From contig NZ_JAQGNX010000184.1 in assembly GCF_028293835.1 (NCBI RefSeq), positions 1 through 64,000 of the forward strand: DNA of 64,000 nucleotides, in the 5' to 3' direction. Origin of the DNA: Pseudomonas sp. Lineage in GTDB: Bacteria > Pseudomonadota > Gammaproteobacteria > Pseudomonadales > Pseudomonadaceae. The position numbers and the translations under genes were made by a program. The notes beneath the pieces were generated by a model, which did not search any database, was not told the DNA's origin, and saw nothing but the letters and a program-made list of their open reading frames with translations. This document shows, in pieces, positions 26,345 to 60,681 of this stretch; the stretch's first letter is position 1; the number at the start of each line of letters is the position of its first letter.

Positions 26345-26423
26345 CTGTAGGAGCCAACGTGTTGGCGAGGCATCTGCCGGGCATACCCATTACATCGCCT
26401 CGCCAACACCTTGGCGCCTACAG
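26345..26423. repeat. Paired inverted REP-like element (BIME) between hyi and glxR
   Basis: CTGTAGGAGCCAACGTGTTGGCGAGG ... CCTCGCCAACACCTTGGCGCCTACAG. Confidence 0.85.
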
Positions 26424-33667: not shown

Positions 33668-33781
33668 CATAGCAGGACTTGAAGCTACGTCAACCACAAT
33701 AATTTCACCTGATAACCAGCATCCATTGGGCCAAAGCACAAAAAATGGATTAAGATCGTTTCAGCCATTTGAGGATTTTGT

Positions 33782-34507
33782 ATGCAAGATTCAGATTTCA
33801 TTACGGAAAAGGTCGGTGTTCGGCAATTGCCCAGGGTCGAGCGTCAACGTCTGCACGACACCGTCGTCGAGCACCTGCGTAGCTTCATTATTGAAGGTGT
33901 GCTGGAGGCTGGCAGAAAGCTGAATGAGCGTGAATTATGCGAAACCCTTGGCATCTCCAGAACGCCATTGCGCGAAGCACTCAAGGTTTTGGCGGCGGAA
34001 GGCTTGATTGAAATTTCGCCCAATCGCGGCGCCAGTGTTGCGCGCATGTCCGAGCTGGAGATTCGCGAGGCCTTTGAATTGATGAGCGGCCTGGAAGCGT
34101 TTTCCGGCGAGTTGGCGTGTGAGCGAATCACCGCCGAAGAGTTGGCAGAGGTTAAAGCGCTGCATTACGCCATGGTGGTGTGCAAAAACCAGCATGATTT
34201 GCCGGGGTACTACCAACGCAATCGGGCGATTCACGATTTAATCAACCAGGCAGCGCGTAACTCTGCGCTGCGTCAGGCCTACCAAGCGCTTAACTTCAGA
34301 TTGCAGGCGCTGCGTTTTCGCTCCAACTACCAAGCGCCAAAATGGGACCGTGCGGTACACGACCATGAGCAGATGATCGAGGCGCTGGAAGCCCGTGACG
34401 GCAAACGCTTAAGCTCGATCCTGCGCCATCACTTGCTGGAAAAACGCGATGCATTGATGTTGATGGTTCGGCAGGACGATGAGCATGTGCGGTCGATTCG
34501 TAGCTAG
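33782..34507 (+). CDS. GntR (FadR/FCD) family transcriptional regulator
   Basis: GRKLNERELCETLGISRTPLREALKVLAAEGLIEISPNRGASV. Confidence 0.92.
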   Translation: MQDSDFITEKVGVRQLPRVERQRLHDTVVEHLRSFIIEGVLEAGRKLNERELCETLGISRTPLREALKVLAAEGLIEISPNRGASVARMSELEIREAFELMSGLEAFSGELACERITAEELAEVKALHYAMVVCKNQHDLPGYYQRNRAIHDLINQAARNSALRQAYQALNFRLQALRFRSNYQAPKWDRAVHDHEQMIEALEARDGKRLSSILRHHLLEKRDALMLMVRQDDEHVRSIRS

Positions 34508-34587
34508 CGGGTTACAGTTTTTCATGAGGCGGTGGCCGAGTTCGGGCTACCCTTGCTGCAAATCCATTCGCAGCGAAGGGCATCAAG

Positions 34588-35352
34588 ATGACTTGGTCGG
34601 CCAAGCAATACACGGCTTTTGAAGACGAACGTACCCGCCCGGTGCGGGATTTGGTGGCCGCTATTCCTGATCGGGAGGTCCGCCTTGCCATCGACCTGGG
34701 CTGCGGCCCGGGGAACTCCACTGAAGTGCTTGCCGAGCGCTTTCCGGAGGCTGCGGTGAGCGGCATCGACAGTTCAGAGGACATGATCGCTGCCGCCAAC
34801 AAACGTCTACCAGCGATGCAGTTCGAAGTCAGCGATATCGCTGGCTGGAAGCCGGCGCAGCAGTACGATGTCATCCTGGCCAACGCTTCATTGCAGTGGG
34901 TGCCCGATCACGATGCGCTGTATCCGCGATTGGTCAGTCAACTGGCGCCAGGTGGCAGCCTCGCAATCCAGACCCCCGACAACCTTGAAGAACCCGCGCA
35001 TCGAATGGCGCGAGAGATCGCCGCAACCGGGACTTGGGCCAGTAAGATCGGTGGCCAGATGCATCCTCCCCGTCACGCCGCTGGGTACTACTATGACCTG
35101 CTGACAGCGCATTGCACTCGGGTTGATGTGTGGCGAACCACGTATTACCACCCATTGGATGGCGGCGCGCAGGCAGTGGTTGAATGGTTCAAGGGTTCGG
35201 CATTACGCCCGTACCTTGCGCCCCTCAGCGATGCGGAAAAGGCCGAGTTCCTGGCGCGGTACCTGGCCGCCATGCAAGAGGCCTATCCGGCCGCCGCTAA
35301 CGGTAAAGTGCTGTTGCCGTTTCCAAGGTTATTTATCGTCGCTACTCGGTAA
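34588..35352 (+). CDS. tam: Trans-aconitate 2-methyltransferase
   Basis: Full-length Tam-like pattern: TWSAKQYTAFEDERTRPVRDLVAAIP, LAIDLGCGPGNSTEVL, LANASLQWVPDH. Confidence 0.92.
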   Translation: MTWSAKQYTAFEDERTRPVRDLVAAIPDREVRLAIDLGCGPGNSTEVLAERFPEAAVSGIDSSEDMIAAANKRLPAMQFEVSDIAGWKPAQQYDVILANASLQWVPDHDALYPRLVSQLAPGGSLAIQTPDNLEEPAHRMAREIAATGTWASKIGGQMHPPRHAAGYYYDLLTAHCTRVDVWRTTYYHPLDGGAQAVVEWFKGSALRPYLAPLSDAEKAEFLARYLAAMQEAYPAAANGKVLLPFPRLFIVATR

Positions 35353-35532
35353 TCCCTCTGACCTGCAGGCGGTTCAGCTGCTGCGGAGCCGCTACCACCG
35401 ACAGTCACGTCGCTTGAACCATGTTGAAAACCTGTACGTCTATCACGGTAATGCCGACCTGTCGCGTTTGCGTACATGCCTTCCCTGCGCCTCGACGGTT
35501 TACAGCAACGTTTGACGTAAAGGAAAACAACA

Positions 35533-36546
35533 ATGAATCCAGAAGATTTGGCTACCTCCAGGCGCCGCCTGATGCAGGGCGTAGCCTTGACTGCTGCGGC
35601 TTCGTTGGTGGTCCCGGCCTTCGCCCGAGCCGACGAGGCTAAAACCACCACGGCTGCGCCGCCGGTGCCCATTGGTGACCCGAAAAATGGTCGGCCAAAA
35701 CCGCCTTTTGCTGAGCAAAGTCAACCCTGGCCCGGGCTGGCTAGCAAGATGTCACCGCAGCCTGATCACGGTGAAACCAGTTATCAGGGGCGAAACCGGT
35801 TGCTGGGACGCAAAGCCCTGATCACTGGCGGTGACTCCGGCATCGGTCGGGCAGTGGCCATCGCCTTCGCCCGGGAAGGCGCCGACGTTGCCATCTGCTA
35901 CTTGCCCGCTGAAGAATCCGACGCCCAAGAGGTGGTTAAGTTGATTCAGGACGCGGGACGTAAGGCGGTAACGGTTCCGGGGGACATTCGTGAAGAAGCG
36001 TTTTGCCGCGACATGGTCGACCGAGCCGTCCAAGGCCTGGGCGGGCTCGATATTTTGGTGAACAACGCGGGTCGACAACACAGTTTCGATTCGATACTCG
36101 ACATCAGTACCGAAGACTTCGACTGGACGCTGAAGACCAATCTTTATGGGATGTTCTGGATTACTAAAGCGGCAATCCCGCACCTGCCAGAAGGCGCGGC
36201 GATCATCAATACCGCCTCGGTGAATGCCTATGATCCATCGGCCAACCTGCTGGATTACGCCATGACCAAAGCCGCCATCGCCAACTTCAGCAAAGGGCTG
36301 GCAAAACAGATGATCAAGCGCGGTATACGGGTCAACGCCGTCGCGCCGGGGCCGTTTTGGACCCCCTTGCAGGTCAGTGGTGGCCAGACCATGGAAAAGC
36401 TGAAAGCGTTTGGCAGTGATACACCTATCGGGCGCCCCGGACAGCCGGTGGAGATTGCTCCGATTTACGTGCAGTTGGCGGCAAGTGAAGCGAGCTACAT
36501 CACCGGCCAAGTGTTTGGTGCATCGGGCGGCGCAGGCCAGCCATGA
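35533..36546 (+). CDS. SDR family oxidoreductase with Tat-like leader
   Basis: SRRRLMQGVALTAAASLVVPAFARA leader; TGGDSGIGRAVAIAFAREGADVAI; NNAG; YAMTKAA. Confidence 0.92.
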   Translation: MNPEDLATSRRRLMQGVALTAAASLVVPAFARADEAKTTTAAPPVPIGDPKNGRPKPPFAEQSQPWPGLASKMSPQPDHGETSYQGRNRLLGRKALITGGDSGIGRAVAIAFAREGADVAICYLPAEESDAQEVVKLIQDAGRKAVTVPGDIREEAFCRDMVDRAVQGLGGLDILVNNAGRQHSFDSILDISTEDFDWTLKTNLYGMFWITKAAIPHLPEGAAIINTASVNAYDPSANLLDYAMTKAAIANFSKGLAKQMIKRGIRVNAVAPGPFWTPLQVSGGQTMEKLKAFGSDTPIGRPGQPVEIAPIYVQLAASEASYITGQVFGASGGAGQP

Positions 36547-36589
36547 TCGAAACGGTCAGCTCACAAACCAACGACACAAAGGAGATGAA

Positions 36590-36748
36590 ATGAACCCGGC
36601 ACGAGTAGTTGTACTGACATGCAGTCTGTTGTTTCTGCATGGCTGCTTTGACAAATCGGATAACGAAACCAAGAACAACACCGATGGCAGTAAATCGTCG
36701 GTTCAGATGCAAAAATCCGATAGCAACGAGAACAGCAACAATAAATAG
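36590..36748 (+). CDS. Small lipoprotein (52 aa)
   Basis: MNPARVVVLTCSLLFLHGCFDKSDN: leader plus lipobox LHGC; GGAG upstream. Confidence 0.6.
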   Translation: MNPARVVVLTCSLLFLHGCFDKSDNETKNNTDGSKSSVQMQKSDSNENSNNK

Positions 36749-36788
36749 CAGGTCTGCTTGAGGCTATTAACTGGATGAGGGTAACGCT

Positions 36789-37016
36789 ATGTCTGACGAC
36801 ATGTCTTATTTCGGTATCGGTATTGCGGTGATTATCTTGCTGGTCGACCTATGGGCGATTGTGAGTGTATTTCGCAGTGAAAAAACCACAGGCACCAAAG
36901 CCGCGTGGGCGATTGGGCTGATTGTGTTTCCAGTGTTGGGACTCATCGTCTGGGGCGTGGCAGGGCCCAGAGGGGTGAAGGCTGGGCCGACATCACCCGA
37001 GCATAGCAAGGGTTAG
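36789..37016 (+). CDS. PLDc N-terminal domain-like small membrane protein
   Basis: DLWAIVSVFRSEKTTGTKAAWAIGLIVFPVLGLIVWGVAGPRG. Confidence 0.8.
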   Translation: MSDDMSYFGIGIAVIILLVDLWAIVSVFRSEKTTGTKAAWAIGLIVFPVLGLIVWGVAGPRGVKAGPTSPEHSKG

Positions 37017-37080
37017 CGATGCCTTGCCGGGTGCAGGCAGTGCGTGCACTGCGCCCGGCAATGGCGAGCGCGCCCAAGGA

Positions 37081-39252
37081 TTAATCTGCCCCTAGGATCG
37101 CCCGAATACGTTCGCTGAAATCATTAATGCTGAACGGCTTGGCCAGCACGTGGGTAGCGGGTTTTGCGTTTTCGTTTAGCTGCAGGTTTTTTGCAAAGCC
37201 GGTGATGAACAATACCTTTAGCTGCGGATGCCGAACGCGCAACAACGCGGCCAGTTGCTGTCCGTCGAGTCCACCGGGCAAGCCGATGTCCGTTACCAAC
37301 AAATCAATATGTTCGAGCTTTTCCGCACGGCTTAATGCTGATCGACCGTCAATGGCCTCCGGCACGGTGTATCCCAGGTCGGTGAGCAACTCGATCATGA
37401 CCTGCCGTACCACTAACTCATCATCTACCAGTAGCACTGTTTCACCCGTTGCCCGGGGCAATGGCTTGGACGTTCTGGACTGAAACGAGATGTCATCGGC
37501 TGCTATCCGGTGCATTGGAAAGTTGAGCACGATGGACGTGCCGCTGCCCATTTGACTACTGATCTGAGTATGCCCACCGGATTGTTGAACGAAGCCGTAA
37601 ATCATGGAAAGGCCCAGGCCGGTGCCCTCTCCTGACTGTTTGGTGGTGAAAAATGGATCGAAGGCGCGCTCCATTACCTCTCGGGTCATGCCGGTGCCAG
37701 AGTCCGTTACGGTGATGCTTATGTAGTCGCCATCGGGTAAATCCTGGCCTCGGGGGAGGGGGCGTTCGACTTTCGCGTGGCTGGTTTTTATCGACAGCGA
37801 GCCACCGTTGGGCATCGCATCGCGCGCATTGATCGCCAGGTTTAAAATCGCGTTTTCCAACTGGTTCGGATCACACAGAATCGAGCCGTTGGCGCTCAGC
37901 AGCGTTTCCAGTTCGATGCCGGGGCCAACGGTCCGTCGCAGCAAGTCCTCAAGCCCGGCGACCAGTTTGTTTGGATGGATGACCTTGGGCTCCAGCGTCT
38001 GCTGCCGAGAGAAGGCCAATAACCGATGAGTTAATGCCGCCGCACGTTGCACAGTGGATTTAGCCAAATCGATATAAGAGGGCAGCTTATCCACTTTGCC
38101 CTGGGATAATCTCAGTTGCATCAGCTCAAGACTGCCGAGGGTGCCGGCCAGCATATTATTGAAGTCATGTGCCAACCCTCCCGTCAGTTGTCCGACCGCT
38201 TCCATTTTCTGGCTTTGGCGAAGTTTTTCCTCGGTGGCCTCGCGTTCTCCCTGTTCTTTGACCAATGCCAATGTACGCTCAACCACGCGCTCTTCCAGCG
38301 TTTCGTTCCAGTCACGTAGGGCCGACTCGAGGCGCACGCGCTCTTCAATGTCCTCAATGGTTCCATACCACTGCAAACACTCACCCTGACCGTCCAGTTG
38401 AGGAAACGCTCGGATTCTGAACCAGCCATACTCGTCGCCGTTTTTGCGCAACGGAGCGCTGACGTCATAAGGCGCTTTGGTCTGGACTGAGTGGGCCCAT
38501 GCATCGGCCATCTGTTGCTTGTAGTCGCGATGGCACACCTGTAGCCAGCCAGACTCGAGGGCTTGATCCCGAGTAAGACCGGTCAGTTGCAGCCAGCGTT
38601 GATCAAATGATGTAACGCCGCCTTTGGCATCGGCCGTCCAGATGATTTGCGGATTGAGCTCTACCGCTACCCGAAAGTGTTCCTCGCTGCTGCGTAACGC
38701 TAACTCGGAGGCCTTGATTTCATCCAGCGCGCGAAAGCGTTCTACCGCTCCCGCGATAAAATTGGCGTAGGTTCGCAGGAAGTACACATCGCGCGGAGGA
38801 AAGGCTCGAGGGGTTTTACTGGCGACTTCAAAAATCCCAAAGGGGGACTTTCCGTCCACCACGAGAATCGGCACATTAGCCAGTGCCTGAACGCCGTGTT
38901 CAAGCAGGAAGGGCGCATAGCGGAAACGTTTTTCGAGGCTGACATCGGCTGAAATGACCGGGTTTTTCGAATGAAACGCATAGCCTTCAGACAGGCCAGG
39001 GTCGGACGGTACCTTCAATTGACCCACTACATGGGATTGCCAGCCGACCCCGGCACGCACTTGCAAAGAGCGACCGTCGTCGCACAGCATCATGATCTTG
39101 GCAAAATCCGTATTCAGCGCGTCACGCACCAAGCCGCACGCTTGTTGCAGAATCTCGTCAAGACTCGGCGACTTCAGCGCGAGTTCTCCAAACTGAGCCA
39201 AGGCATTAAGTCTGCGTAACAGCGCTGGCTGTAACTTATGTGATTCGGTCAC
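37081..39252 (-). CDS. Hybrid sensor histidine kinase (GAF-PAS-HisKA-HATPase-REC)
   Basis: H-box [44 protein letters not shown]...[15 protein letters not shown]. Confidence 0.94.
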
Positions 39253-39309
39253 GGAATGTATTCCATTGTTACGCCCAACAACGCGGGCCTGTTTATCCGG
39301 TAATAGCGT

Positions 39310-39921
39310 TCACGTGCCCGGCGCACGCAAGTATTCGGGCGTCAATCCGTTGAACCAGAGCAAGATCATTGAGACCAGGATTGTGACTAAAACCAGTAAC
39401 CCGATGCCCCAGACACTTGCCGAATACAGCAACCCTTCTTCTTCGCGTAAGCGCATGAACGTTGGCAGGCCGACGAACAGCAAAAACGTCGAGTACAGTG
39501 CCGCAATCATCAATACCGTGACGGCCAGCCAGCGGCTGGGGTACAGGCCGGCAATCCCGGCGATGAAGAACGGAGTGGCGGTATAAGCGGCAAAGCCAAT
39601 GCATTGATTGAGGGTTGGGCGGGCGTCGAAAGTGCGAGACATCCAGCGGATAAATCCACCCACTATGGCGACACCGATGAGGATCGTCACAAAGAGCAAA
39701 CCGCAGAGTCCCATGGCACTGGCTGAACTGAGTTTTACCGTTTCGTCTTTGGCCAGGCTCCAGCCTACAAACGTCGTACCGATAAACAGGCAAACCGTAG
39801 GAATAAGCGCCAGTAATAACAAATGCCCGACATAGTGCCGCGGCTTTTGTTCCTCATCTTTACGAATGCTCGCCCAGACGAAATTGGGTTGGGTAAACAA
39901 CTTTATAAAGTGCGCAGACAT
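39310..39921 (-). CDS. Yip1 family membrane protein
   Basis: Five hydrophobic segments, Yip1-like pattern (LTQPNFVWASIRKDEEQKPRHYVGHLLLLALIPTVC). Confidence 0.8.
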   Translation of the reverse strand: MSAHFIKLFTQPNFVWASIRKDEEQKPRHYVGHLLLLALIPTVCLFIGTTFVGWSLAKDETVKLSSASAMGLCGLLFVTILIGVAIVGGFIRWMSRTFDARPTLNQCIGFAAYTATPFFIAGIAGLYPSRWLAVTVLMIAALYSTFLLFVGLPTFMRLREEEGLLYSASVWGIGLLVLVTILVSMILLWFNGLTPEYLRAPGT

Positions 39922-40052
39922 CGCAGCCTCCTAAACGTCTGATGGCCGGTAAACCGGACCTTATGACGTATTGAGGCTTGTGATGAAGAAGGGTTGCATC
40001 TTTTTTTACCAGCGGTGAGTCTGACATCGGTCAGACCCTCTGCAACGCTGCT

Positions 40053-40886
40053 TTAGAACGGTTTGTCACCCAGAATTGTCGCTCGATGCATGACTCGACG
40101 CTGTGGCCGATAGTCATCGACGGCATAGTGCTGGGTGACGCGGTTGTCCCAAAAAGCCAAGTCGTTGGCTGCCCAGCGCCAACGCACGGTAAATTCCGGG
40201 CGGCTGATGTGGTTGAACAACAGGGTTAACAGCGCGGCACTTTCGGCAGGCTGTAATTCGTTGATACGTGTGGTGAAGCCGTCGTTGACGAACAACGCTT
40301 TACGCCTGCTTATCGGATGGGTACGGATGACCGGGTGTGACAACGGCGGATGGTCGCGGCGGGTTTGTTCATAACGTGCAAGGTCATCCGGGGTGCTACC
40401 AAATCGTTCAAGGGGAAATGACCTGGTGAAGTCGTGGCTCGCTGTCAGCCCGTCGAGCATCTTGGCCAAGGGCGCGGATAAGGCCTCATACGCGGCTATT
40501 CCGCTGGCCCACAGCGTATCTCCGCCAAAAGGCGGCACCTGTTTGGCGCTGAGTATGGCCCCCAGGGCAGGAGCCTCGAGGAAGGTCACATCGGTGTGCC
40601 AGGATGCGTTGTCGCGCAGATCGACAACGTCGGTATCAAGCAGCAGCAACTCCGGGTGTTGCGGTACATTCGGGTAAAGCGGATGGATGTGCAGCTTGCC
40701 GAAACCGGCGGCAAAGCGAAGGTGCTGTTCGGGGGTCAACGGCTGATTGCGAAAAAACAGCACTTGGTGCTGCAACAGTGCCTGTTCAATCGCCGCGTAG
40801 TGTTCTGCGTGCAATGGAAGGCTGAGGTCAATTCCCTCTATTTCGGCACCAAGGGCCGAGCCTATGGGAGTGATGGTCAGGCTCAT
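40053..40886 (-). CDS. tauD: Taurine dioxygenase
   Basis: [25 protein letters not shown]; Fe-binding WHTDVTF and TQHYAVDDY...RVMHRATI. Confidence 0.92.
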
Positions 40887-40932
40887 GATCGGACTCGAAC
40901 GGTGCGCGTGGGAGACCACGCGGTAAATGAAG

Positions 40933-40952
40933 GCGAGGCCTTACGGCCTCGC
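40933..40952. other. Perfect 8-bp-stem hairpin at the tauA-tauD junction
   Basis: GCGAGGCC-ttac-GGCCTCGC. Confidence 0.6.
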
Positions 40953-40961
40953 AGCGGTCAA

Positions 40962-41948
40962 TCACTGGGGGATGAATTTCGCGCTGACGTAGGACGCATA
41001 ATCGGGCAGCACGCTGTCGATTTTCCCCTGCTCCTTGAGGAAAGCTGCGGTTTGCGCGATATCTTTTGCCGTACCGCCGCCCAGCAACTCGGCGGACGTT
41101 TGCTCTTTCGCTGTCGGGAAATGCGAGCCTTCCAGCAGTTCCGGAATGTCTGCGGCATTGGCGCCGGTAAACCGGGCGATTTTTTGAACTTCAATGGACT
41201 CTGGCGTCCATGCGGCCTTGTGTGCGGTGTAATCAGCGATAGCGTCCAGGCTGACTTTGGCGAACCCGGCGACTATTTCCGGGTGTTTCTCAGCGAAGTC
41301 TTTGCGCGCAACCCACACTTCGAAGGTGGGAGACCCCCAGGTTGATACTTCACCTGCATCGGTCAGTATCTTGCCGGTTTTACGGATTTCGCCGAGGGCA
41401 GGCGACCAGGTGAAGGCGCCGTCGATGTCTCCGCGCTTCCACGCGGCGGTAATTTCAGCCGGGCTCAAATTGACCACTTTCACTTTGCTCGGATCGATGT
41501 TCCAGTGCTTGAGCGCGCCAAGCAGGCTGTAATGGGAGGTCGAAACAAACGGCGTGGCGATGGTCTTGCCAATCAAGTCCTGGGGGCTGCTGATACCGCT
41601 GCCGTTGCGGACCACCAGTGCCTCGGAGCTCTTGATTTGCGAAGTAACGATAAACGCCACCAGCGGCACGTTGCGCGATGCGGCGGCAGCCAGGGGGCTT
41701 GATCCGAGATTACCTATTTGTAAATCTCCCGAAGCAATAGCCGCCACCACCGCTGGACCTGCATCGAAACGCCGCCAATCAATTTTTTCACCTATGACTT
41801 TGTCGTAAGTGCCATCGGACATAGGAAGCTTAGTGGGGTCGATCCCGGTGATATAGCCAATGGTCAGCGGCGCGGCATGAGCGCTAAGCGCGAGGCCTGA
41901 CACCATCAGCCCGGTGATTAATGTGCGAGTGAACGAAGAACGCGCCAT
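40962..41948 (-). CDS. tauA: Taurine ABC transporter substrate-binding protein
   Basis: Signal peptide then LTIGYITGIDPTKLPMSDGTYDKVIGEKIDWRRFDAGPAVVAAIASGDLQIGNLGSSPLAAA. Confidence 0.93.
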   Translation of the reverse strand: MARSSFTRTLITGLMVSGLALSAHAAPLTIGYITGIDPTKLPMSDGTYDKVIGEKIDWRRFDAGPAVVAAIASGDLQIGNLGSSPLAAAASRNVPLVAFIVTSQIKSSEALVVRNGSGISSPQDLIGKTIATPFVSTSHYSLLGALKHWNIDPSKVKVVNLSPAEITAAWKRGDIDGAFTWSPALGEIRKTGKILTDAGEVSTWGSPTFEVWVARKDFAEKHPEIVAGFAKVSLDAIADYTAHKAAWTPESIEVQKIARFTGANAADIPELLEGSHFPTAKEQTSAELLGGGTAKDIAQTAAFLKEQGKIDSVLPDYASYVSAKFIPQ

Positions 41949-42277
41949 GGGTAAGCCTTGTCGGGATTATGGAATAGGGGTGGGCTGGGGTTGACTATGA
42001 GAAGGGCGGCTTACCCTGAAATCGGGTGCTGTAGGTCACCGAACTCCGAGCATGGTTGGAATGCTCTATATAACTGTCCGGTGATCCGGTGGGCAGAATT
42101 TAAAGCTTTTAGGTCTAAGGGCGAAATACCATTTTGGAACTAGCTTAGACACGGTAAACATGAACAAACCAGCCTGCCTGTAGAAGCGAACTTGTTGGCG
42201 AGCGTAGCGAAAGGCTTACACGACGTAGAGTACTTTCGCTCTATGCGTGCCCCGGTCGGCGGCGATATTCTTGATCC

Positions 42278-42389
42278 ATCAGCGCAAGTGCAGGAGTGCT
42301 TGCGGATCACGGATGATCGACCATGGCCCGGACGGCCACCGACAGGAAGTTGGAATGGTCTTGGAAAAACCCGCTTCGGCGGGTTTTTG
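42278..42389 (+). ncRNA. Candidate Rsm/Csr-type GGA-hairpin regulatory sRNA (RsmX-like)
   Basis: Hairpins 42283-42304 (loop AGGA), 42305-42318 (loop CGGA closed by A-U), 42324-42338 (loop CGGAC), 42339-42353 (loop AGGAA), then terminator CCCGC-UUCG-GCGGG-UUUUU; 5' end inferred. Confidence 0.72.
42366..42388 (+). terminator. Rho-independent terminator of the candidate sRNA
   Basis: AAAACCCGC-TTCG-GCGGGTTTTT. Confidence 0.88.
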
Positions 42390-42411
42390 TTGCGCTGGTT
42401 TTTTGTACAGA

Positions 42412-42468
42412 CCGCGCCGCCTGCTGCCCGAATGAATTCGGTCCCGCAGGAATGGCGGCATGGCGCGG
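42412..42468. repeat. Nested palindromic element, REP-like
   Basis: CCGCGCC(42412)/GGCGCGG(42462), CCTGC(42420)/GCAGG(42446), CCGAAT-ga-ATTCGG(42428-42441). Confidence 0.6.
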
Positions 42469-42545
42469 GATTTGGGGCAATCCGGTAAGAGCGAACGTGT
42501 TCGCGAAGCACGTCACTCGGTTCTTCAATAACTCCCGTTATTCAG

Positions 42546-43646
42546 TCATTGACTTTTCAATGCACGGGGTTCGCTCATTGGGCAGCCGTTGTGCTCACCG
42601 CGAAAGGTTGACGACATATCGTACGAGGGCTTGCGCACCCGCATGACGCCACCCAATGGACGGTGAGCCGCAAGACCATGCCAGGGGCTGAACGCCATGC
42701 CGTCATCAATCTCCGCTTCGCGGCTTTGTGACCAGGATTGCTGCTGCGCAACCTCGATTCGGGCAACCGTGACAAACGGACTGACATCCTCTGGCCATTC
42801 TGCGGAAGCGTCTTCTATGGGCATCTTCTCGAGGTCGGTGGCCAACTGAATACGTACTTCCCACGTCCCGCTATTGGTCGAAAAGTAGTCCTGAACCGCT
42901 GCGCGCAAACCATCCGGATTGCCATTGAGGTCAACTGTTTTGTCGGTTAATGCGGTTAATTCAGCAGATATCGGCACGACGCTCAGCTTGGCGTAATACG
43001 GGCCATACAGAAATGGCACAACGCTGTAATAGGTCTCGCCCAGCAGGTGGGTAATCGGATGCCCACCCAGGCTTTTAAGCGTGGCGCTTTCACCGCCGAC
43101 CGCCTCGACGATACTTTCCACGCCCCTAAGTACAGCAGAAAACGCCTTTTTCGACCCCGGCGCTTTATCGGTGGTTTTGGCCAGCATTTTCAGGGTTTTC
43201 AAAAAGGATTTTGGATCGGCGGCGGTGAAGACCTTGGCATTTTGCAACACGAAATCCTGAGTGACATCACGCTCGCTGCCCGGTAAACGGCTGCCTTCAA
43301 CACCAATAATCTTGATTGCCAGACCACGAGGCGCAGACACTTTATCGTCGAGAATATCGCCAGGATTAGTGGAAAACCGTAACGCGACCGGAAGTTTAAC
43401 GGGTTTGGCAAACATGCCTTGGGCCAATTCCGGTGGAAGGTTATCAACCACTTGGATTTCGCCATAAAGCAAACCATGGGCCTTGGCATGGACGCTGCGT
43501 ACGGCGTGGCCATAATCGTGATAAGTGGTTTCCAGAATGCTACGCATGGCTTCAGCCAAGTCATGGCTGGTGTGTGATTCGTCTTCCGGTATTTGCTCAA
43601 AGGACGGTTCAAACAGTAACGGTTGCACACTAAGGAGCGTTGTCAT
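42546..43646 (-). CDS. Catalase family protein (truncated/SrpA-like)
   Basis: HAKAHGLLYGEIQVVDNLPPELAQGMFAKPVKLPVALRFSTNPGDILDDKVSAPRGLAIKIIGVEG; ATG at 43646 preferred. Confidence 0.85.
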   Translation of the reverse strand: MTTLLSVQPLLFEPSFEQIPEDESHTSHDLAEAMRSILETTYHDYGHAVRSVHAKAHGLLYGEIQVVDNLPPELAQGMFAKPVKLPVALRFSTNPGDILDDKVSAPRGLAIKIIGVEGSRLPGSERDVTQDFVLQNAKVFTAADPKSFLKTLKMLAKTTDKAPGSKKAFSAVLRGVESIVEAVGGESATLKSLGGHPITHLLGETYYSVVPFLYGPYYAKLSVVPISAELTALTDKTVDLNGNPDGLRAAVQDYFSTNSGTWEVRIQLATDLEKMPIEDASAEWPEDVSPFVTVARIEVAQQQSWSQSREAEIDDGMAFSPWHGLAAHRPLGGVMRVRKPSYDMSSTFRGEHNGCPMSEPRALKSQ

Positions 43647-43930
43647 CGGGGTATCTCCGAGTCGATCAATCACGAAGTCAGGTCCGTCCGGTGGCGCTCT
43701 TGATTGGCACTTATATCGGCTAAACCATGGGGACATAGTGACCGACCGACGTTGCCTGGGCGGGTTCAACAGCAGCGACAAACAACTCGATTTCTCCGTT
43801 AATGAATTGCCGGAATCAGGGTTTTCGCCTGCTTGGCGCCGTTCGTCTACTGTCTGAAAAAGCTTTTGAACGCTGCCCGGGTCCGTCAGGACAGATGCAT
43901 GAGCGAGTTGCTCCTACAGTGGAGAATAAA

Positions 43931-45043
43931 ATGTTAAAAACTTCAAAAACGCTGAGAGCAGGTGCGTTTCTGCTGACCGCAATCAGCGTTGCTTTAGTAT
44001 TGAATGGCTGCGCGCGCGACCCGGAAAAGCGCTCTGTGAGTGAACTGGCAGTCAGCGGCACCAAGAGCATGTTTAGAACTGACGCTGACATGCAGAAGGT
44101 ATTGAACAAGTTTGCCAGCTTCGACGCTAAGGCCGTTGAAAAGACCACCCCCACTGAAGCGCGCTTGCAACCGACCATAGCGGATGCGGTGATGGCCGTA
44201 TTGGCTGACCAGAAGCGCGATGCGTCCCCTGAAGCCCTGGTTCCAGGTGTGAGTAGCGTCGACCGAACCGTTCCCGGTGCGGCGGGTAATATGCAGGCCC
44301 GGGTGTTTACGCCTGCCGGTTCAGGCCCGTTCCCAGTGATTTTGTACTTTCACGGTGGCGGTTGGGTTATTGCGGATCGGGTGGTTTACGACGGTGGCGC
44401 ACGCGGTTTGGCGAAACAGGCAAACGCCATTGTGGTCTCGGTCGATTATCGCAGGGCACCGGAGAACAAGTTTCCGGCAGCGCACGATGACGGCGTAGCC
44501 GCTTATAAATGGTTGGCCAACAACGCAGCGTCGCTTAACGGTGATCCGAAGCGGCTGGCAATCGCTGGGGAAAGTGCGGGTGGCAACCTGGCAGTGGCGA
44601 CAGCCATCGCGGCACGCAAGGCGCACCTTACTGCGCCGCTGCACGTATTGTCGGTGTACCCGGTTGCGCAAACCACGACCACCACGGCGTCTTACCAAAA
44701 GTACGCCGATGCGATGCCGCTCAATCGACCGATGATGCTCTGGTTTATCGCTCAGACCACCACCAGCGCGAATGACCTCAAGGATCCACGGCTTGATTTG
44801 GTCCACGCCGACTTGAGCGGTTTGCCACCGGTGACCCTGATCAACGCTGAAATTGATCCGCTGCAGGACGACGGCGCGCAATTGGAAACAGCCTTGCGTA
44901 CCGCTGGCGTCAGTGTTGAGCGCAAGGTGTACTCCGGGGTTACCCACGAATTTTTTGGCGCGGCCGCCGTGGTAGCAAAAGCTCAGGAAGCTCAGCAATA
45001 CGCTGGACAGCGATTGAGTGCGAGTTTGAAATCAGGCATGTAG
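43931..45043 (+). CDS. Alpha/beta hydrolase (HSL-like), predicted lipoprotein
   Basis: Lipobox LNGC; oxyanion HGGGW; nucleophile GESAGG; ATG at 43931 preferred. Confidence 0.93.
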   Translation: MLKTSKTLRAGAFLLTAISVALVLNGCARDPEKRSVSELAVSGTKSMFRTDADMQKVLNKFASFDAKAVEKTTPTEARLQPTIADAVMAVLADQKRDASPEALVPGVSSVDRTVPGAAGNMQARVFTPAGSGPFPVILYFHGGGWVIADRVVYDGGARGLAKQANAIVVSVDYRRAPENKFPAAHDDGVAAYKWLANNAASLNGDPKRLAIAGESAGGNLAVATAIAARKAHLTAPLHVLSVYPVAQTTTTTASYQKYADAMPLNRPMMLWFIAQTTTSANDLKDPRLDLVHADLSGLPPVTLINAEIDPLQDDGAQLETALRTAGVSVERKVYSGVTHEFFGAAAVVAKAQEAQQYAGQRLSASLKSGM

Positions 45044-45171
45044 GGCGGGGGAAGTCTACAGATTATTTTTAAGTCGATAAGTTATGCGTTGTTTGATAAG
45101 AGATTGTGCCCGTTTTTGACACCGGTTGCGGCGCAGCAGACACAATCTCCTACAGAGTCGTTGACCTACTA

Positions 45172-45501
45172 TCAGCAGTAGCTGTCGACAACCCGAACGC
45201 GTGAGGTGTTATCCAGCGAGCGCCATTCACGGGTCAGGGTTTGCAGCACCTGGCCCATGAAGTTCTCGTCGGCTGCGGCTTTCTTGCCGACATAACCTTG
45301 GCCTCGGCGGTACATCTTCAGCCTGGCGCGCATCTTCGGGTTGGACTGTTCAAATTCCCCTTCGCCAGCTTTGTCCGCCAGTCGGTCGATGTGCACATCG
45401 CCGGCGTCGCAGACCCAGAGTATGTGGCAATCCAGACTGTCTTTTTGTGAAGCGAACAGTTGGGCCAGCTCTTGAATAGTAGGTTGGTTGTTCAGATTCA
45501 T
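45172..45501 (-). CDS. Hypothetical protein (109 aa)
   Basis: Intact ORF MNLNNQPTIQELAQLFASQKDSLDCHILWVCDAGDVHIDRL. Confidence 0.65.
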   Translation of the reverse strand: MNLNNQPTIQELAQLFASQKDSLDCHILWVCDAGDVHIDRLADKAGEGEFEQSNPKMRARLKMYRRGQGYVGKKAAADENFMGQVLQTLTREWRSLDNTSRVRVVDSYC

Positions 45502-55545: not shown

Positions 55546-55585
55546 CCTGTAAGAGCCAACGTGTTGGCGAAGGTCCTTCGGAGCT
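55546..55585. repeat. REP-like half element
   Basis: CTGTAAGAGCCAACGTGTTGGCGAAGG. Confidence 0.6.
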
Positions 55586-59927: not shown

Positions 59928-60614
59928 GTGCGGATATTGGTCGTTGAAGACGATGATCGTGCAGCGGCGTACCTGGTGCGCGGTTTGAACGAGAGCGGGC
60001 ATGTCGCCGATGCCGCGTACGACGGGGTCGATGGTTTGGCCATGGCGCTGGAAGGCATCTATGACGCATTGATCGTTGATCGGCGTTTGCCACGCATGGA
60101 TGGCCTGGAAGTGGTGCGCACGTTGCGCGAGCGTGGGTTGCATACACCGATTCTGATGCTCAGCGCCATGGCTTCGACAGAGCATCGCGTCGAAGGGTTG
60201 CGTGCTGGCTGCGATGATTATTTGATCAAGCCTTATGCGTTCGTCGAAGTTCTGGCCCGGCTTGATGCGTTGCTGCGCAGGGCTGATCGGCCCAGCACGA
60301 GTGGGCAAATCCTGACGGTCAGCAAGTTACAACTCGACTGCGCCACACGCACGGCAACCCGAGAGGGACGGGTAGTGATTCTGCAGCATCGGGAATCGTT
60401 GATTCTTGCCAAACTGATGCGTCATGCCGGACAAGTGGTGACCCGCGACATGCTGTTGGAAAGTGCCTGGGACTATGCGTTCGACCCTAACGACAACGTC
60501 ATCGACAAGCATATTTACCGCTTGCGCCGAAAACTCGATGAAGGATTCGCCACGTCAATGATCAGAACCGTGGCGGGGGCGGGGTATTTGTTGGAATCGG
60601 GCGGAGATCTGTAG
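59928..60614 (+). CDS. OmpR-family response regulator without adjacent kinase
   Basis: VRILVVEDDDRAAAYLVRGLNESG...ALIVDRRLPRMDG...KPYAFVEVL; wHTH; GTG 59928 likely start. Confidence 0.93.
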   Translation: MRILVVEDDDRAAAYLVRGLNESGHVADAAYDGVDGLAMALEGIYDALIVDRRLPRMDGLEVVRTLRERGLHTPILMLSAMASTEHRVEGLRAGCDDYLIKPYAFVEVLARLDALLRRADRPSTSGQILTVSKLQLDCATRTATREGRVVILQHRESLILAKLMRHAGQVVTRDMLLESAWDYAFDPNDNVIDKHIYRLRRKLDEGFATSMIRTVAGAGYLLESGGDL

Positions 60615-60681
60615 GCGCCAATTTGTGGGCGATGTTGGACAGTGTCGGTGATTCCTTTTCGCCAACAAGTTGGCTCCTACG
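60609..60681. repeat. Paired REP-like element overlapping the stop of the response regulator
   Basis: CTGTAGGCGCCAATTTGTGGGCGA ... TCGCCAACAAGTTGGCTCCTAC. Confidence 0.75.

Follow-up and report, generated by a model that had tools for sequence, protein, structure and literature searches.

A standard rsmX small RNA gene with a GacA-type upstream element in a Pseudomonas genome

An intergenic interval in a Pseudomonas genome carries several hairpins with GGA in their loops, which raises the question of whether it holds a regulatory RNA gene of the Rsm/Csr type and, if it does, whether that gene is a known rsmX or an additional paralog. The first-pass annotation, made from the letters alone, had proposed such an RNA and named both identities. 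Here we analysed the surrounding 64,000 nucleotides of the contig (hereafter, the window), the rest of the genome and a sample of 57 genomes drawn around this one, itself included.

The Rfam covariance-model comparison that the annotation had recommended was run on the whole window at gathering thresholds, and the sole curated RNA family match was rsmX (RF02144) at 42278-42389 on the forward strand. The match scored 106.7 bits against a gathering cut-off of 56, nearly twice that value, with an E value of 3.3e-19, and the alignment was full length, covering model positions 1-114. The interval is a standard rsmX gene, a well-known Pseudomonas-type regulator already known in kind and present in many related species. 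Two other identities were rejected for this locus. The RsmY model (RF00195) gave a weak partial match here of 29.4 bits, below its cut-off of 57, and the PrrB/RsmZ model (RF00166) gave no match here, its sole match in the genome being on contig C110. The parts of the gene, in order along the DNA, are as follows.

42203..42220, forward strand: GacA-type upstream activating element CGTAGCGAAAGGCTTACA, the rsmX variant CGTAGC-N6-CTTACA; similar element in 37 of 39 relatives' rsmX copies.
42266..42271, forward strand: -10-like hexamer TATTCT; TAATCT or TATTCT stands just ahead of the RNA in most relatives.
42278..42389, forward strand: rsmX sRNA gene of about 112 nt with an inferred 5' end at 42278; full-length RF02144 match.
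42283..42304, forward strand: hairpin 1, loop AGGA; Rfam alignment and fold, GGA in this loop in all 30 aligned copies.
42305..42318, forward strand: hairpin 2, loop CGGA; Rfam alignment and fold, loop GGA in 30 of 30.
42319..42360, forward strand: junction GACCAT/ATGGTC around hairpins 3 and 4; Rfam alignment and fold, two-sided changes in four of six closing pairs.
42325..42337, forward strand: hairpin 3, loop CGGAC; Rfam alignment and fold, GGA at or near the site in 28 of 30.
42339..42353, forward strand: hairpin 4, loop AGGAA; Rfam alignment and fold, GGA at or near the site in 29 of 30.
42365..42388, forward strand: intrinsic terminator hairpin CCCGC-TTCG-GCGGG-T5; Rfam alignment and fold, best conserved of the helices (pairing in 98.7% of cells).

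Every motif listed in the first-pass annotation was found where it had been placed, and the folding that it had suggested returned four GGA-bearing apical loops and the terminator. The predicted fold of 42278-42394 on the forward strand has an energy of -50.8 kcal/mol (z = -3.5), and none of 200 shuffled sequences was as stable. GGA occupies four of the five predicted apical loops of the RNA, a number reached by none of 1000 dinucleotide shuffles, three of which had three such loops; random 112-mers of the window (n = 2000) had at most two. Seven GGA motifs were counted in total, two of them at stem edges, and the further GGA that had been noted outside the hairpins is present at 42363-42365.

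The description of four consecutive hairpins held in part: there are four hairpins with GGA loops, but hairpins 3 and 4 do not stand alone, both branching from one multiloop. The Rfam consensus alignment and the single-sequence fold agree that this multiloop is closed by 42319-42324 and 42355-42360, so that the pair T42324-A42338 previously assigned to hairpin 3 gives way in the predicted fold to T42324-A42355. A simple consensus scan for promoters and terminators did not pick up the terminator of rsmX.

Comparative analyses showed that rsmX occurs above the cut-off in 24 of the 57 genomes, all of the same genus and many with several copies. Across 30 aligned copies, each of the loop GGAs recurs in 28-30, and the total GGA count of seven in the window falls among the 4-8 found in relatives' copies. 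On a MAFFT alignment of the 30 copies, both partners had changed in 18 of 39 base pairs, more than in any of 500 shuffles or any slid control, a result to be read with the relatedness of the copies in mind. Helix 1 was paired in 53% of cells on this alignment against 78-99% for the other helices, which is probably due to misplaced gaps, and gap placement probably also explains why RNAalifold recovered only some of the helices. In several relatives rsmX occurs as tandem copies spaced by about 200 bases (G018 C1:5679122-5679472, G005 C1:102914-103258 and G010 C1:4561531-4561851; loci L009, L018 and L022), an arrangement also described in P. brassicacearum and P. syringae.

Could the hairpins have arisen by chance, or the segment be protein-coding and not an RNA gene? 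Three open reading frames of 98-123 amino acids, at 42140-42511 on the reverse strand and at 42192-42488 and 42323-42646 on the forward strand, overlap the rsmX interval. However, the resemblance of these frames to relatives centres on the RNA, and both the covariance-model E value (3e-19) and the covariation in relatives speak for an RNA gene. The covariance-model match in practice excludes a chance or coding origin, the probability of which we consider vanishingly small. The standard rsmX gene could instead be an additional paralog with the canonical copy elsewhere in the genome, as several relatives have two or more copies and this assembly is a draft in 187 contigs at 95% completeness. Against this, the genome has no other match above the cut-off, and the flanking genes match those around rsmX in a relative, G272; a paralog is therefore highly improbable. 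Of the two identities originally named, the known rsmX thus stood and the paralog did not: on the assembled sequence, the window carries the genome's sole rsmX, within the bounds that the draft assembly sets on a single-copy count.

The only other RF02144 match in the genome, on contig C154, scored 32.8 bits, below the cut-off. It was rejected as a second rsmX, since the 24-nt terminator is all that it has in common with the gene in the window, and cmscan called no rsmX at the C154 locus, its report being of a gabT RNA elsewhere. Above the cut-offs, rsmX, rsmY (RF00195, contig C49, 132 bits) and rsmZ (RF00166, contig C110, 124.3 bits) each occur once in the genome, alongside two CsrA-family proteins and a GacA (310.8 bits against a cut-off of 280).

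Gene-context analysis was performed on the surroundings of rsmX. Upstream, on the opposite strand, are tauD and tauA, and downstream are a catalase-family protein (PF00199, weak match) and an alpha/beta hydrolase. In G272 (locus L134), which gave the best DNA match among the relatives, rsmX is immediately flanked by tam (trans-aconitate methyltransferase) and a convergent gene of 109 amino acids, and a gene resembling window positions 33773-34504 precedes tam. In the window these flanking genes keep their order and orientation, lying at 33773-35349 on one side and 45172-45501 on the other; the tau and other genes upstream and the catalase and hydrolase genes downstream stand between rsmX and the shared flanks and are absent from the G272 locus. 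The shared order of tam, rsmX and the 109-aa gene supports positional orthology with the G272 rsmX, on the strength of this one genome. The extra genes at 35350-42200 (histidine kinase, Yip1, tauD/tauA) and 42390-45170 (catalase-like, hydrolase) suggest lineage-specific gain here, or loss in G272, around this core.

A functional link of rsmX with tauA or the catalase-like gene was rejected, as neither is kept beside rsmX in relatives and the order in G272, where both are missing from the locus, argues against it. In relatives' rsmX loci, with flanks of at most 1.5 kb, tauA and the catalase-like gene were absent, and 80 loci with relatives of the catalase-like gene gave no blastn match to the rsmX RNA within up to 6 kb of flank. 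The 109-aa protein at 45172-45501 on the reverse strand is about 80% identical to the product of the gene adjoining rsmX in G272 and had no Pfam or NCBIfam match.

The closest known systems are rsmX (RF02144) of P. protegens CHA0, rsmX-1 and rsmX-2 of P. brassicacearum and rsmX1-5 of P. syringae. The gene in the window resembles them in length, structure, GGA loops, terminator, and the upstream element and its distance; nothing essential differs, the differences being the single copy, the seven GGA motifs and the stem sequences. RsmY is of the same class, a GacA-controlled GGA-loop titrating RNA, and PrrB/RsmZ is of the same functional class; both are encoded separately elsewhere in this genome.

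The site that the first-pass annotation had called a degenerate GacA-type site proved to be an rsmX-type upstream element. It begins at -75 relative to the RNA, and similar elements start 73-75 bases before the RNA in 37 of 39 other copies from relatives, where they mostly read TATAGC or TATGGC, then six bases, then CTTACA. The window's element is identical at 16 of 18 positions to TATAGCGAAAGGCTTACA of relatives, is the only such site within the window and is close to the published element of P. brassicacearum rsmX, TATAGCGAAACGCTTACA (PMC7911923). When up to three mismatches are allowed, the generic palindrome TGTAAG-N6-CTTACA occurs at 10 sites in the window against 12.3 expected by chance, so a match of 42203-42220 to it is by itself uninformative, no better than chance. 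It is the conserved position and the rsmX-specific sequence that make the GacA-site reading convincing. The proposed -10-like TATTCT was also located, at a place matched in most relatives; a consensus scan did not yield a complete sigma-70 promoter for rsmX. The genome's own rsmY and rsmZ have near-perfect GacA palindromes (11/12) at -76 and -188, respectively, that of rsmZ (L003) starting much farther ahead than in rsmX or rsmY.

The locus as a whole is very probably best explained as the genome's single rsmX, driven by GacA and titrating RsmA/RsmE-like proteins with its GGA loops. Its identity, its predicted and conserved structure, the conserved control element and the partner genes were observed here; transcription, GacA control and titration would follow by analogy with characterised rsmX genes. 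GacS/GacA would switch rsmX on, with phosphorylated GacA binding 42203-42220, and transcription would start near 42278 and end at the terminator. The GGA loops, presented on stable stems, may bind dimers of the two CsrA-family (RsmA/RsmE-like) proteins; gel shifts in P. syringae have shown binding of RsmA homologues to rsmX1, rsmX5, rsmY and rsmZ (PMC6715622). Together with rsmY and rsmZ, rsmX would draw these proteins off target mRNAs and relieve translational repression. The gene is useful for annotation as one arm of this genome's Gac/Rsm switch, with one each of rsmX, rsmY and rsmZ; knowledge of the Gac/Rsm system is unchanged by it.

The left half of the element is degenerate (CGTAGC), its first two bases being CG where relatives mostly have TA, and a REP-like sequence at 42179-42201 abuts it, so promoter strength could differ. 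It is conceivable on these grounds that rsmX is intact in RNA sequence and no longer properly expressed, its promoter weakened, for example by the adjoining REP-like sequence; but the RNA, the -10-like hexamer, the spacing and the right half-site CTTACA are all intact, and we regard such a loss as very unlikely. It is also improbable that the REP-like element changed the opening bases of the GacA site, leaving GacA control of this rsmX tuned differently from that in other species.

REP-like sequences (TGTAGAAGCGAACTTGTTGGCGA type) lie on both sides of rsmX, at 42179-42201 and 42484-42506. Others were observed in the window at 26346-26422, 60610-60681 and 55548-55570, and the inverted pairs 26346/26422 and 60610/60681 resemble REPIN-type pairs.
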